Part shown: piece by piece, positions 54,233-59,251 of the stretch
Position numbering within the stretch: position 1 is the first letter of the stretch
Layout: each line of letters starts with the position of its first letter
Assembly: GCF_039645965.1 (NCBI RefSeq)
Contig: NZ_CP147917.1
Location: forward strand, 2,046,001-2,110,000
Source of the DNA: Sulfurimonas sp. HSL3-2
GTDB lineage: Bacteria; Campylobacterota; Campylobacteria; Campylobacterales; Sulfurimonadaceae
Direction of reading: 5' to 3'
DNA length: 64,000 nucleotides
Made by a program: the position numbers and the translations under genes
The notes under the pieces: generated by a model
Seen by the model: only the letters and a program-made list of their open reading frames with translations
Databases searched by the model: none
What the model was told of the DNA's origin: nothing

Positions 54233-54321
54233 GGACAGTTGGGAGAGCTGGTTTAATCCAGTCGCCTGGAACGCGGCCGTAGGGCAACCTACCGAGGGTT
54301 CGAATCCCTCACTGTCCACCA
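54233..54321 (+). tRNA. tRNA-Ser(GGA)
   Basis: A class II tRNA of 89 nt including encoded CCA. The acceptor stem GGACAGT/ACTGTCC is perfect. The D arm is a short 3-bp stem with G18-G19. The anticodon stem GTCGC/GCGGC encloses the loop CTGGAAC, giving anticodon GGA. The long variable arm is GTAGG-GCAA-CCTAC and the T arm is GAGGG-TTCGAAT-CCCTC. The discriminator base appears to be A, whereas bacterial serine tRNAs usually carry G. The 3' third of the gene is echoed at 55176-55205. Confidence 0.93.
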
Positions 54322-54354
54322 TCTCTACACCATTTATCAATAATTTTCTAAATC

Positions 54355-54657
54355 CTAAAGTGACGCATTATCTATCAGGCTAAGCGGTTCGTTTACATTA
54401 AAGATCTTCGCTCTTATGTCTGTATATCCAAACGATGCCAATCTTTTTGTATGCTTTTGCAGGTATCTGTCTGCATCTTTTAGATTGTCAAAGAGATAGA
54501 TCCCTCCGGCTTCTTTTGTTTCTTCATTTTCTGTCCATATCTTCCATATCAGCCCCTCTTCATTGGCTATATCTTTTGCCAAGTCGGTAAATGCTTCTGA
54601 AAATTCCTCTTTAAACGGTCCTGCATGAGGAAAGTCTACTTGTAACAGATATTTCAT
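54355..54657 (-). CDS. YdhR-family putative monooxygenase
   Basis: A 100-residue protein (KYLLQVDFPHAGPFKEEFSE, then GLIWKIWTENEETKEAGGIY, then LFDNLKDADRYLQKH) that fits the YdhR family. These are small dimeric ferredoxin-like proteins related to antibiotic-synthesis monooxygenases. Substrate is unknown. It is divergent from a MarR regulator with a 69-base gap that contains a TATACT/AGTATA inverted repeat. MarR control of this gene is therefore a reasonable guess. It lies between tRNA-Ser and a tRNA-like repeat, a likely acquired spot. Confidence 0.75.
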   Translation of the reverse strand: MKYLLQVDFPHAGPFKEEFSEAFTDLAKDIANEEGLIWKIWTENEETKEAGGIYLFDNLKDADRYLQKHTKRLASFGYTDIRAKIFNVNEPLSLIDNASL

Positions 54658-54726
54658 GTTATACTCCCAAATATTTTATGTACGAAAGTATAGTGTCAAA
54701 ATAAATTTATGTCAACTAGGTTTACA

Positions 54727-55152
54727 ATGTCTTTATGTTTTTTATCTTTAGAAACGACAAAAGTCTTTAATGAACTCATACTAAAAAATTTACAAAGCAA
54801 TGGATTTGAGGACTTAAGTGTAGCGCTAATAACACTTTTCCCCTATATAGACGGAGATGAGAAGATAACCGCGTCACAACTCTCCAAACTGGTAGGATAC
54901 TCCCGTCAGGCTATGCATAAAAACATAAAAAAGCTAGAAGAAGCAGACTACATCACACTCCTACAGGAAAATCAAAAAGAGAAGATCATCAAGCTTACAC
55001 TAAAAGGCAAAGAGCTGATGAGCGTAGCGAACCGCTATATATCGACCATAGAAAATGAAGTATCTGAACTTATCGGGAAAAAAGAGCTAGACAAGTACAA
55101 AGAAAACCAGATGAGACTCTATGAGTATTTAAGATCAAAGGTTGTCTTTTGA
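54727..55152 (+). CDS. MarR-family transcriptional regulator
   Basis: A winged-helix regulator of about 141 residues. The recognition region SQLSKLVGYSRQAMHKNIKK is followed by LEEADYITLLQENQKEKIIKLTLKGKE, split here as helix and wing, and dimer helices lie at both ends. The ATG at 54727 is chosen for its AGG site; an ATG six codons upstream lacks one. Its last codons contain an AAAGG that once served as ribosome site for a following NDH-2 start, now reduced to a remnant. Likely ligand-responsive control of ydhR and formerly ndh. Confidence 0.82.
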   Translation: MSLCFLSLETTKVFNELILKNLQSNGFEDLSVALITLFPYIDGDEKITASQLSKLVGYSRQAMHKNIKKLEEADYITLLQENQKEKIIKLTLKGKELMSVANRYISTIENEVSELIGKKELDKYKENQMRLYEYLRSKVVF

Positions 55153-55182
55153 GTACAAAAGTAGTGGTTATCGGTGGGGGTT
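55134..55182 (+). repeat. 49-bp direct repeat, copy 1 (marR end plus ndh start)
   Basis: These 49 bases match 58028-58076 at 44 positions. They cover the last codons of marR, with an AAAGG site, and the first codons of an NDH-2 gene. The mismatches cluster around the start codon. This implies two diverged alleles rather than a recent exact target duplication. Confidence 0.85.
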
Positions 55183-55229
55183 TGAGTCTCTCACTGCCCA
55201 CCACCAATCAATTTATTCTAATCCAATAA
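55149..55229 (+). pseudogene. Truncated N-terminal remnant of an NDH-2 gene
   Basis: A TTG overlapping the marR stop opens a 26-codon frame starting MSTKVVVIGGG, nearly the same as the start of the intact NDH-2 at 58043 (MRTKVVVIGGG). After the GGG the sequence switches to a tRNA-3'-end-like stretch and the frame ends at TAA. This marks the former position of ndh directly behind marR. Confidence 0.8.
55176..55205 (+). repeat. Degenerate copy of the tRNA-Ser 3' end (attachment-site-like)
   Basis: Thirty bases align with the T arm and acceptor 3' strand of the tRNA-Ser gene (54294-54323) with 24 identities, including CACTG and CCACCA-like ends. The copy begins at the GGGGGTT shared with the NDH-2 glycine codons. 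The copy and the tRNA enclose ydhR and marR. It could be a decayed attachment site, but no integrase is present. Confidence 0.65.
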
Positions 55230-55239
55230 ATACGTAATG

Positions 55240-56514
55240 TTAGAATTTCAGGATAACATCTAACTGCACACGTTCATAGTATGCTTCTGAGTGACTACTG
55301 CCATCTCTATTTGCGTAAAGTTTATTATAAAAGAATGTTGCAGCAAGGTCTGTATGTTTGCCAAATTTATATTTTGTTCTAATCGCATGTCCTTTAGCAG
55401 CAGTACCGCCACCAAAGTTATCAGAGTCACTATGAGCACCCAATACAGCATCTTCTTGAGTATCAGTATACGAGTACTTCACTTGCCAATCATGAACATT
55501 TTTTGCTTTACCTATTTGAAATGCTAGATCGTATCCAAAGTTATTATTGCTTGCTTGAGTGTTATATGCTACTCCGGCAGCAATTGCAAACGGTTTGCCA
55601 AACAGGTCTTTGTACTTCAACTCTCCGAATGCTTCTACAATGTTGTAATCATTTTCAAATACACCGTTTACTAAAGTGTTACCCATACCTTTATTATTAT
55701 TGGCGCTGTAAAGAGGTGTATTTCCTTTAACACCGTCATAGTAATAAACACCTGCACCTAAATTTAAGTGAGAATTTTCTAATTTAATTTTCTCTACATA
55801 TTGTGCTACAACAAGATTAATAGTATCTCTGGCAACAGAATCCTCAGCATACGTCGGTTGGTTCACACCTAAGTTAATGATGCGAGAATCATTTTCATAC
55901 TTATAGTTGATACCATCGAATGAGAGATCATTATCCCAAACAAGCTGTGACTTGATCGGTCTGTAAAGCATATATGGTTCTCTACCAACTTTTAATGTAT
56001 GATTTCCATCTTGATACGTCAAGCCTAAAATATTCACTCTTAGTGATTGCCAAAAGTAATCACTTAAAGCTCTATCCTCAAATGTTTGGTTACCCGAAGT
56101 CGGATTTGCATATCCACTTCTCATACCGGCGTCAAACGTTAGCTTGTCAGTTAAATCAATAGCTGAAATTAATCTTAATCTGTATCTGTTGTGATAAGTT
56201 GGAGTCTTCTCATATCCATCGTCATAGTTATATTCTTTACTTTCATATCTTAATCTTAAATCACCTTTGAAATGAAATCTGTTCAAGATACTACCTTCAC
56301 TGTTTGAAGAACTTTGCTCAACTTCCGTAATTGTAGTTTTTGGTGTTGACTCTACTGCAGCATTCTTTGTATACTCACCAAGTATCGTGCGACCTTCGCC
56401 TGGAGTATTGAAAATTTCTCCAGTAGCTTTATTCGTATAGATTGTCATTGTCTCTGCGTGTATTGCAGTACCTAGTGTTAATGCGGCCATTGTAGAAAGA
56501 ATAATTTTATTCAT
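55240..56514 (-). CDS. Putative outer-membrane porin
   Basis: A 424-residue exported protein with a signal peptide cut after AIHA, a short polar N-terminal region and then about 340 residues of barrel-type strands (FKGDLRLRYESKEYNYDDGY, LKVGREPYMLYRPIKSQLVW). It ends in LDVILKF with terminal Phe. It resembles uncharacterised Campylobacterota porins. A leader hairpin lies 28-64 bases before its start. It is transcribed after an orphan response regulator on the same strand. The segment is more AT-rich than its surroundings. Confidence 0.8.
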   Translation of the reverse strand: MNKIILSTMAALTLGTAIHAETMTIYTNKATGEIFNTPGEGRTILGEYTKNAAVESTPKTTITEVEQSSSNSEGSILNRFHFKGDLRLRYESKEYNYDDGYEKTPTYHNRYRLRLISAIDLTDKLTFDAGMRSGYANPTSGNQTFEDRALSDYFWQSLRVNILGLTYQDGNHTLKVGREPYMLYRPIKSQLVWDNDLSFDGINYKYENDSRIINLGVNQPTYAEDSVARDTINLVVAQYVEKIKLENSHLNLGAGVYYYDGVKGNTPLYSANNNKGMGNTLVNGVFENDYNIVEAFGELKYKDLFGKPFAIAAGVAYNTQASNNNFGYDLAFQIGKAKNVHDWQVKYSYTDTQEDAVLGAHSDSDNFGGGTAAKGHAIRTKYKFGKHTDLAATFFYNKLYANRDGSSHSEAYYERVQLDVILKF

Positions 56515-56541
56515 GTTGTTTTACCTTGTAATTTTTAAATT

Positions 56542-56578
56542 GCTTAGGCCTTTGTAAAAATAAAGGCTATTCCTAAGC
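56542..56578 (-). promoter_or_regulatory. Bulged hairpin in the porin leader
   Basis: Outer arms GCTTAG/CTAAGC and inner arms GCCTTT/AAAGGC form a 12-bp stem with a 5-base bulge (TATTC) and an 8-base loop. It lies 28-64 bases upstream of the porin ATG, in the gap after the response regulator. No T run follows in the minus direction. A role as leader control element or message stabiliser is more likely than termination. Confidence 0.55.
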
Positions 56579-56660
56579 TTTAGATACAGAAGTTTAATTT
56601 CACAACATTACTTCCGTACTACAAAACCATTACAAAGTCATTACATTAAGGTGTTTTTAG

Positions 56661-57284
56661 TTAATCATTCTGCAGCATGTAGCCCAACCGGTCTCTGGCT
56701 TCTATATATTTATCAGCATTGTAATCTTTGAGTTTTTGTTTAAGTCTAAAAATCGCAACTCTTAATTTGCTGACATTTCCTTGTGAATATTTTTCATTCC
56801 AGATATTTCTAAAGATCTCCTGTTTAGTAAGTAAAACACCTTTGTTTTCAAGAAGATAAGAAATTATTTTGTATTCAATCGCTGTGAGCGTAACTTTAGT
56901 TCCATCAATATATAGACACTTGTCAGTATGATTCAATACAATATTTTTATATTCTATTGAATCTTCAGATGACAAAATGGATTTTATTCTTATCTTGATC
57001 TCATCCTTTGTAAAAGGTTTCACTATAAAACTGACATTTTTACTCTGTAAAACTGTAGAAAACTTCGGTAATACCTCAGGTTCTATAACCAATAAAACGC
57101 CTTTATAAATATCCAATACTTTTGTTACAAACTCAACATCCGTTGATGAGGTAACCTCTAGAATCAGGCTGTTATTATGTGTCTTATACATGTTTACATT
57201 TTCTAGTAAATTTATATCAAAGTAAAAACTACTTTGTAATGTTTGAATTATTTGAAGATCACTCATGACCACATCAATGCTCAT
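56661..57284 (-). CDS. Orphan OmpR-type regulator with degenerate receiver
   Basis: A 207-residue protein. The N-terminal 115 residues resemble a receiver, with the conserved Lys in VSFIVKPFTKDE. However, the acidic pair near the N-terminus is missing, and the phospho-acceptor position reads LILEVTSS rather than an Asp. The C-terminal winged helix is of OmpR type (LTAIEYKIISYLLENKGVLLTK split, then KLRVAIFRLKQKL and RDRLGYML). No histidine kinase is nearby. It probably controls the adjacent porin without phosphorylation. TAGGAAA precedes the ATG. Confidence 0.8.
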   Translation of the reverse strand: MSIDVVMSDLQIIQTLQSSFYFDINLLENVNMYKTHNNSLILEVTSSTDVEFVTKVLDIYKGVLLVIEPEVLPKFSTVLQSKNVSFIVKPFTKDEIKIRIKSILSSEDSIEYKNIVLNHTDKCLYIDGTKVTLTAIEYKIISYLLENKGVLLTKQEIFRNIWNEKYSQGNVSKLRVAIFRLKQKLKDYNADKYIEARDRLGYMLQND

Positions 57285-57358
57285 TTATTTTCCTATTTTG
57301 TTGGTATTTGAAATTTTTTTATTGAACTGAATTCAATAGATTTGGATTAGAAAATAAA

Positions 57359-57646
57359 TTACGATTGCGGAGGTTTTGGGTTTGCAGAGTCTATGTACTC
57401 TTTATAAGCAGTGTAAGGTGTATATATCTTTTGCGAAGAAGGCGTGAAGTATAGGGTAAGTTTGAAGTGGTCTTTAGCAACCTGGTCATCAAGTTGATTT
57501 ATGTCTATTTCTGAAACTTCTTCAGAAGTTTCTTGAGAAAAATCAATGGTGACATCAAATGATTTTTGGTATTCTGTTGCAATATTTAATTGAGCAAAAA
57601 GAGAACTTGTAAAAATCAAGAAAAATAATGTAAACAGATACTTCAT
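57359..57646 (-). CDS. Small secreted protein of unknown function
   Basis: A 95-residue protein with a clear signal peptide (MKYLFTLFFLIFTSSLFA) and a mature part of about 77 residues. The mature part has an acidic centre (SQETSEEVSEIDINQLDD) and a Pro/Tyr-rich end (YTPYTAYKEYIDSANPKPP). It contains no cysteine and no lipobox. It precedes the orphan regulator on the same strand and may share a transcript. I do not recognise a family. Confidence 0.6.
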   Translation of the reverse strand: MKYLFTLFFLIFTSSLFAQLNIATEYQKSFDVTIDFSQETSEEVSEIDINQLDDQVAKDHFKLTLYFTPSSQKIYTPYTAYKEYIDSANPKPPQS

Positions 57647-57721
57647 AAAAGAATTTTAGTATAAAAAAAGAAATATGAGAAGTTTTAATATTTTATAAGA
57701 CAGTTGATCAATAATGCAGCT

Positions 57722-57886
57722 CTATTCTTGATCAAGATCTTCCAATAAAGTATCGAGACTATCAAGGCTCTCAAGAAGCCAATCTAAGCTAAGATTTTCT
57801 TCTACATCATTGTTATTTTCAATCTCTTTTTTTTGAGATTCTATTTCTGCTTGAACTTCTTGTTCAAATGATTCGTTATTATCCAT
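57722..57886 (-). CDS. Small acidic protein (54 residues)
   Basis: An ATG frame of 55 codons including stop that encodes a strongly acidic, probably helical peptide (EQEVQAEIESQKKEIENN, ending LDWLLESLDSLDTLLEDLDQ). The leucine spacing suggests an amphipathic helix. The ribosome site is weak (AAAG). The flanking bases 57647-57721 and 57887-58009 show nothing else except an AT-rich promoter region. Real coding is plausible from codon texture but unproven. Confidence 0.45.
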   Translation of the reverse strand: MDNNESFEQEVQAEIESQKKEIENNNDVEENLSLDWLLESLDSLDTLLEDLDQE

Positions 57887-58009
57887 ACAAAACTTTACAC
57901 GAATAGAATTACATTTCGATTACATTCAAGCTGGCAATATTGCAAAAAGTCTTTTAATCAAATTAAGAGCATCTTTCGATCAAGCTACATTATTGCTACC
58001 TTAACTCTG

Positions 58010-58015
58010 TATAAT
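58010..58015 (+). promoter_or_regulatory. Candidate -10 element for ndh
   Basis: TATAAT in CTGTATAATTG lies 28 bases before the TTG of ndh and just before the repeated block that carries its AAAGG ribosome site. It lets ndh be expressed without marR. Confidence 0.5.
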
Positions 58016-58027
58016 TGTAAAAACAGA

Positions 58028-58076
58028 ATCAAAGGTTGTCAGTTGCGAACAAAAGTAGTGGTTATCGGCGGGGGTT
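58028..58076 (+). repeat. 49-bp direct repeat, copy 2 (ribosome site and start of intact ndh)
   Basis: Partner of 55134-55182 with 44 of 49 identical bases. It keeps the ATCAAAGGTTGTC stretch that, in copy 1, encodes the end of MarR. Here it is non-coding and supplies the ribosome site for ndh. Confidence 0.85.
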
Positions 58077-59251
58077 ATGGCGGGTTGCGCGCCATCGAGT
58101 TTTTGGCAAAACATAATGACGTCGACATAACGCTCATCGACAAAAATCCTTACCATTACTTACAGACCGAAGCTTACGGCTACATCGCGGGGCGTTTTGA
58201 CATCCATGAGATCGCCATCGACCTTGATAAATGGTGCCGCGGATTTAAGAACAGAGTCGACTTTCTTTATGAAAAAGCGACTGCGGTGGACTATGAAAAC
58301 CAAACCGTCACTACGGAAAAACAGCAGCTTTCATTTGACTACCTCATCGTCGCTACGGGAGCACAGACAAACTTCTTCTCTTTTATAGAGGGGCTTCGTG
58401 AGAACAGCTACGGCGTGAAAAACCTCATGCGTGCTTATAACTTCAGAAAAGAGTTTGAAAACCTCATCTATAAAAAACTCCAAAACGAAGAGATAAATAG
58501 CGGTGAAGATATCAACCTTGCCATCGGCGGAGCGGGCTTAAGCGGTGTGGAAGTGGCTGCAGAGATGGCACATGTCATCGAGATCTACAGCAAAACTCTG
58601 GGCGAAAGGGCTAAAAAGATAAAGATCTATCTTATCGATGCGAGCGATACCATCCTTCCGGGAATGAGCTCATACATAATCTCAAATACAAAGAAAAGAC
58701 TTGAAAAACTTGGTGTCAATATACTCACCAGCGCATTTATAGAAAAACTGGATAAGACGACTATCTATTTTAAAAACGGCGAACAGTTAAAATACCATTT
58801 CATGATCTTCACGGGAGGCATCAAAGCTTCTTCTCTCAACACGAAACTGGAGTGTGAAAAGAACAGGATCGACCAGCTCATCGCTGACGGGGAGCTCAAC
58901 ATCCACAACAGCAAAAACATCTTTGCCGTAGGCGACTGCGTCGAGATAAAAGACATGCACGGCAAGCTGCTCCCGCCAACGGCGCAAATAGCCGAAAAAA
59001 GCGCGGAGTATGTGGCAAACACCATCCGCAAAAGGATAGACGGCAGAGCCAGCCAGCCGTTTCATGCCGATGTCAGCGGGATATTTGTAGCTCTTGGAGG
59101 CACATATGCAGTCGGAGAGATGTTCGGTTTTGTCAAGGTAAAAGGCTATACGGCGTACCTGCTCAAAAAAGCGATAACCTACGCCTATTTCCTCGGTCTG
59201 CATCTGCGCATAAACGCAGGATACAAAAACAGGATAAAAGACACTCTTTAA
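58043..59251 (+). CDS. Type II NADH dehydrogenase-like FAD oxidoreductase (NDH-2)
   Basis: A 402-residue flavoprotein. The FAD-binding start is KVVVIGGGYGGLRAIEFL, with LIDKNPYHYLQTEAYGYI, LIVATGAQTNFF and a second nucleotide-binding fold at LAIGGAGLSGVEVAAEMA. FAD-contact NIFAVGDCVEI and PPTAQIAEKSAEYVANTI follow. The C-terminal amphipathic region suits membrane attachment. This is the NDH-2 pattern: NADH or sulfide:quinone-type electron transfer without proton pumping. No sulfide:quinone reductase cysteine pattern is obvious. The start is TTG. Its former place was directly behind marR. Confidence 0.85.
   Translation: MRTKVVVIGGGYGGLRAIEFLAKHNDVDITLIDKNPYHYLQTEAYGYIAGRFDIHEIAIDLDKWCRGFKNRVDFLYEKATAVDYENQTVTTEKQQLSFDYLIVATGAQTNFFSFIEGLRENSYGVKNLMRAYNFRKEFENLIYKKLQNEEINSGEDINLAIGGAGLSGVEVAAEMAHVIEIYSKTLGERAKKIKIYLIDASDTILPGMSSYIISNTKKRLEKLGVNILTSAFIEKLDKTTIYFKNGEQLKYHFMIFTGGIKASSLNTKLECEKNRIDQLIADGELNIHNSKNIFAVGDCVEIKDMHGKLLPPTAQIAEKSAEYVANTIRKRIDGRASQPFHADVSGIFVALGGTYAVGEMFGFVKVKGYTAYLLKKAITYAYFLGLHLRINAGYKNRIKDTL

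Follow-up and report, generated by a model that had tools for sequence, protein, structure and literature searches.

The window analysed here is a 64,000-nucleotide stretch of the genome of Sulfurimonas sp. HSL3-2 (G000:C1:2046001-2110000), which is assembled as one 2.24-Mb contig and is 99.98% complete. The locus of interest reads, from left to right, as an intact tRNA-Ser(GGA) gene, ydhR on the minus strand, marR on the plus strand, a junction of dissimilar sequences, a porin gene, an OmpR/PhoB-type regulator gene and two small open reading frames, these last four all on the minus strand, and finally ndh on the plus strand (Table 1). The tRNA-Ser(GGA) gene is the only tRNA that ARAGORN detects in the window.

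A first-pass annotation had described, at this junction, an NDH-2 start that runs into the 3' end of a tRNA-Ser gene. The junction is real, and its coordinates and sequence had been given correctly. Missing from that description were the intact ndh gene downstream, the 49-nt duplication to which the apparent start belongs, and the integrase arm that follows the tRNA fragment.

Table 1. Features between tRNA-Ser(GGA) and ndh (positions in the window)
Feature	Position	Strand	Basis
tRNA-Ser(GGA), intact, integration target	54233..54321	+	ARAGORN; identical to tRNA-Ser of G004, same gene context
ydhR-like mono-oxygenase, acquired module 1	54355..54657	-	PF08803, E 1.4e-41
marR-type regulator, acquired module 1	54709..55152	+	Winged-helix/MarR Pfam matches
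Duplicate of ndh leader and first codons, 49 nt	55134..55182	+	90% identity to 58028-58076
Joint GGGGGTT, where the end of the ndh copy overlaps the tRNA T arm	55176..55182	+	Sequence; tRNA comparison
tRNA 3' end relic, T loop to CCA	55183..55203	+	17/21 to tRNA-Ser(GGA)
Integrase-proximal attachment arm, 31 nt	55204..55234	+	Match to integrase-bearing tRNA flanks
Porin_5 family porin, acquired module 2	55240..56514	-	PF16930, E 4.4e-18
OmpR/PhoB-type DNA-binding regulator, module 2	56661..57284	-	PF00486, E 7.9e-16
Small ORF, 95 aa, no family	57359..57646	-	ORF list; Pfam
Small ORF, 54 aa, no family	57722..57886	-	ORF list; Pfam
Native ndh promoter region, leader and start (repeat copy 2 at 58028-58076)	58002..58076	+	G004 homology
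ndh (NDH-2), intact, 402 aa, TTG start	58043..59251	+	PF07992, E 3e-39

The duplicated ndh start and the genes around it

The NDH-2 start at 55149 is not that of the gene itself, as had been supposed, but part of a 49-nt second copy that forms a direct repeat with the beginning of intact ndh, 2894 bp downstream. The left copy has 94% identity with the ndh start in the relative G004. Homology to G004 around the native gene begins at 58002 and takes in a TGTATAAT box; the copy at 58028 thus keeps a G004-like native promoter, whereas the copy at 55134 has none, which identifies the left copy as the extra one. Intact ndh shares 81-86% amino acid identity with its counterparts in same-genus genomes. 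As the two copies diverge by 10%, the event that produced them is old, and changes since then may mislead its interpretation. The G004 gene is closer to the extra start (94%) than to the native copy in the window, in which codons 2 and 3 are altered from TTGAGTACA to TTGCGAACA.

The two modules between tRNA-Ser and ndh are foreign to the genus. Neither ydhR nor marR has a match in seven other same-genus genomes, and the porin has no close homologue there. The closest relatives of all three lie in another genus of the family (g2 in the case of the porin), at 79-85% amino acid identity for ydhR, 62-67% for marR and about 60-72% for the porin; when GTDB contigs were searched with the porin protein, no relatives came up, probably because near genomes are left out of that collection. 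The modules have a GC content of 29-38% overall (ydhR 38%, marR 36%, porin 36%, regulator 30%), and the flanking ndh and upstream cobalamin genes one of 46-47%. BLAST similarity to a ydhR-bearing genome starts at 54333, 11 nt after tRNA-Ser, which suggests that the sequence following the intact tRNA belongs to the ydhR module. The 207-aa regulator of the second module possesses a clear OmpR-type DNA-binding end and no receiver domain recognisable by Pfam; its matches to PhoB-like NCBIfam models are weak and below the cut-off.

The reading frame of marR ends inside the duplicated ndh leader, which encodes its last residues, SKVVF. Native marR ends in relatives differ from this, one of them reading ...AAATCAAAAGAGTGA, and the joint between marR and ndh is therefore placed near the word ATCAAA that both partners contain.

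In the two closest relatives, G003 and G004, nhaA lies just upstream of ndh, and the complete G004 genome has the order tRNA-Ser, nhaA, ndh. The window genome has lost nhaA from this slot and keeps only a 57% paralogue elsewhere; the ydhR-marR and porin-regulator modules have replaced it. Gene content after tRNA-Ser varies among all same-genus genomes examined. For example, tRNA-Ser(GGA) in G001 has behind it genes for an EcoRI-type adenine methylase and for a GmrSD_N/HNH nuclease (G001:C37, 3416-5525), likely a defence module in the same slot.

The tRNA fragment and its integrase arm

Positions 55176-55203 correspond to the T arm, acceptor and CCA of a tRNA, and agree with tRNA-Ser(GGA) at 23 of 28 positions, or 17 of 21 when the seven bases GGGGGTT are left out; the 24/30 match noted earlier for 55176-55205 is likewise exact. 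This agreement is well above chance: it was reached in none of 200 simulated 3.8-kb stretches (at 23/28 or 17/21) and in none of 60 simulated 64-kb windows (at 23/28). The second-best place on either strand of the 64 kb attains 18/28, and no other tRNA-end copy in the window exceeds this value, so that a matching distal attachment site (attR) was not found there. Among 36 distinct tRNAs from the loci of the genome, Ser(GGA) ranks highest with 23 matches, followed by Ser(GCT) with 22; no other tRNA in the genome fits the fragment better. Nevertheless, with 5 of its 28 positions at odds with the tRNA-Ser end, the relic cannot be assigned to this tRNA with certainty.

IMG/VR contains no exact copy of the relic. 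A degenerate pattern, built from the relic itself, picked out tRNA-Met, tRNA-Val and tRNA-Ala ends in unrelated viral contigs with up to 27/28 matches, but these are not followed by the arm described below (at most 15/31). Being selected by the pattern and lacking the arm, they do not displace tRNA-Ser as the source, though they leave the assignment to it tentative.

The bases beyond the CCA carry a second signal. A family-wide DNA search returned one extra match to 55200-55233 (30/34), located in G123 immediately behind an intact tRNA-Arg(CCT) gene and its CCA. About 150 nt beyond this match, G123 encodes a 410-aa integrase with Arm-DNA-bind_3 (PF13356) and Phage_integrase (PF00589) domains. 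The 31 bases after the relic CCA were therefore compared with the 3' flanks of every tRNA in the loci examined (n=139, of which 17 are integrase-bearing). The three best flanks were those of tRNA-Arg(CCT) in G123 (26/31), tRNA-Val(GAC) in G002 (21/31) and tRNA-Leu(CAA) in G015 (18/31), against a mean of 11.8 (sd 2.4) for all flanks, and in each of the three a related integrase starts 156-182 nt downstream. The 17 integrase-bearing flanks would take all three of the top places with a probability of 0.0016. G123 had been found through the DNA match; G002 and G015, however, were fetched for their integrases, so that the arm similarity in these two is an independent result (probability 0.013 under random ranking). 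The arm of the relic sits at the same fixed offset from the CCA as in the integrase-bearing relatives.

Since the arm match ranks integrase-bearing tRNAs first, positions 55176-55234 are a tRNA end plus integrase-side arm, a decayed attachment site of a P4-type element. This order, tRNA end and then integrase-proximal arm, implies that the former element extended to the right of the fragment. Accordingly, the earlier observation that tRNA-Ser and its partial copy bracket ydhR and marR holds as a description of the layout, but the element itself is put on the other side. An alternative assignment of 55204-55239, as the native downstream region of the porin gene, was rejected, as no such sequence accompanies any of nine porin relatives.

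The absence of an integrase, noted at the outset, was borne out: between tRNA-Ser and ndh (54322-58027) no remnant was detected with E below 0.2. The whole genome encodes only two PF00589 proteins, of about 270-280 aa each and far from the locus. Because the integrase is absent, the relic is expected to be dead for excision and recombination.

Integrases also occur beside tRNA-Ser in relatives. In G010, a full-length integrase lies 222 nt after tRNA-Ser(GGA). In G002, which belongs to the same genus, the orthologous tRNA-Ser(GGA) is followed by the arm motif CCCCTAAAATACGAAGTTTC and then by a truncated, inverted N-terminal piece of an integrase (G002:C72, 1589-1830; 40% identity over 52 residues, E 2e-8). 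Thus tRNA-Ser(GGA) is a used integration target. As a good positive control, tRNA-Ser(GCT) of G010 is accompanied by an integrase, and a displaced copy of its 3' end lies about 11.7 kb away. The tRNA-Arg(CCT) element of G123 (G123:C1:486141 to about 492980) likewise ends at a displaced tRNA-Arg 3' end, a recognisable attR, about 6.7 kb away; it is a compact element of about that length with a P4-type integrase.

Two further observations concern the arm. In 257 Gb of genomes and IMG/VR, the arm pattern gave 15 matches, none beside a tRNA; these are sequence coincidences and are not informative as to its spread. In the window genome, the tRNA-Leu(CAA) gene (G000:C1:1156000-1157500, about 703-760) is followed by AAACCCCGTAAATACGAATAC, with no integrase nearby. 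This sequence resembles the arm that G015 has in its tRNA-Leu(CAA) element (AAAGCCCATAAATACGAGCC), and the flank is possibly a second attachment relic.

Origin of the junction

The junction is probably the decayed site at which a mobile element once entered a tRNA gene, fused by an old rearrangement to a duplicated piece of ndh. A small integrative element, encoding a tyrosine integrase of the P4 type, would once have occupied the 3' end of tRNA-Ser(GGA) and left behind 55176-55234; its integrase would later have been deleted, such that the arm now abuts the porin gene. In a separate version of the slot between tRNA-Ser and ndh, the ndh leader would have followed ydhR-marR directly. Head-to-tail joining of these versions would then have brought the ndh start behind ydhR-marR up against the T arm of the tRNA in the version with the porin, at GGGTT; unequal exchange or the capture of an excised circle could have been the route. 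The relic, its arm, the duplication, the intact border genes and the foreign modules in the place of nhaA are shown by the sequence comparisons. Neither version was found alone in 228 family genomes, so the existence of the two alleles is a step that we infer, as we do the order of events and the recombination route.

We favour this fossil attachment site with head-to-tail joining of two slot contents as the best explanation, with somewhat better than even confidence. One joint then accounts for the 49-nt copy of the ndh leader and start, for the incomplete tRNA, for the meeting of the two at GGGTT, and for the intact state of both tRNA-Ser and ndh. The word shared by the two partners is GGGTT rather than the full GGGGGTT proposed earlier, for the tRNA reads GAGGGTT and the ndh copy GGGGGTT. 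A decayed attachment site and a microhomology-mediated rearrangement had been offered as two possibilities, and each turns out to describe part of the locus: the tRNA end with its 31-nt arm is the relic, and its left half has been exchanged for the ndh start at GGGTT.

The main rival is integration at a secondary site, in which the integrase used the ndh start (GGGGGTT) off-target, the tRNA end and arm represent the attP half of the element, and the 5' end of ndh was restored by the element or by later exchange. The left half of the junction is exactly as such an attL would look, secondary sites are documented for SGI1 (PMC2297512), and the tRNA part of the relic differs from the host tRNA-Ser, as a core borne by an element could. 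However, the restored 5' end of ndh has a native promoter nearly identical to that of G004, which an element would not normally carry, and an extra step is needed to restore both promoter and 5' end. Furthermore, in G123, the one delimited element of this integrase group, the core measures about 15 nt, from the T-stem 3' strand to the CCA, which does not place the crossover at the GGGTT of the T arm. We thus regard secondary-site integration as unlikely. A bolder form of the idea, in which a tRNA-targeting integrase genuinely uses the ndh start as an alternative attachment site and the slot is two-ended, its cargo swapped and stacked while the border genes are regenerated, appears rather improbable.

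That both joints fall in short common words, ATCAAA near the end of marR and GGGTT between ndh and tRNA, would also be consistent with a purely illegitimate rearrangement, in which microhomology stitched together marR, ndh and tRNA pieces and no mobile element took part. Yet this leaves unexplained why the CCA is followed by the arm that integrase-bearing elements have, at the offset that it has in them, and why integrase remnants occur at the same tRNA-Ser in a same-genus genome. Disfavoured already by the arm, it has a low probability. Lower still is that of an assembly chimera, which three unrelated joined pieces and a junction seen in no other genome might bring to mind: the nearly complete genome is a single contig, and neither the 10% divergence of the repeat nor the substitutions within the relic would be produced by a recent artefact.

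Comparison with known integrative elements

Islands recognised by Islander consist of a tRNA, a fragment of it in the same orientation and an integrase, and span at least 2 kb (2-200 kb) (PMC4383910). The present locus resembles them in its intact tRNA with a nearby 3' fragment, both on the plus strand and on the correct side of each other, in its foreign, low-GC genes, all modules of which (ydhR, marR, porin) are absent from the seven other same-genus genomes, and in a tRNA that tyrosine integrases use in relatives. Unlike them, it contains no integrase and measures only 0.9 kb (0.86 kb) from the tRNA end to the fragment; moreover, an integrase-side arm adjoins the fragment, the 5' half of which consists not of island sequence but of a duplicated ndh start. 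Having the tRNA and fragment but lacking the integrase and length, the locus is not an intact island but what an island leaves behind. Such relics would be discarded by island finders, which ask for an integrase and a length of at least 2 kb; the arm sequence offers a marker for them.

The P4-type (Arm-DNA-bind_3) elements of the family, such as that at tRNA-Arg(CCT) in G123, with integrase homologues in G002 and G015, have the same arm directly after the CCA. The G123 element keeps its integrase and both ends; the locus retains the arm only.

Arrays of SGI1, for which tandem as well as secondary-site integration is known (PMC2297512), are alike in holding more than one unit head to tail with attachment-site sequence inside. 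They differ in that the internal joint of the locus is an attachment half fused to a coding start, and in that its units are decayed. The locus is thus ordinary in kind, and the fusion is its unusual detail. It offers a base-by-base view of how genes turn over and stack beside a tRNA in a small genome after the mobile element has gone, a process in which the start of an adjacent core gene can be duplicated and a captured regulator cut short. Set beside these systems, the locus is a well-resolved trace of past gene turnover and not a system of a new type.
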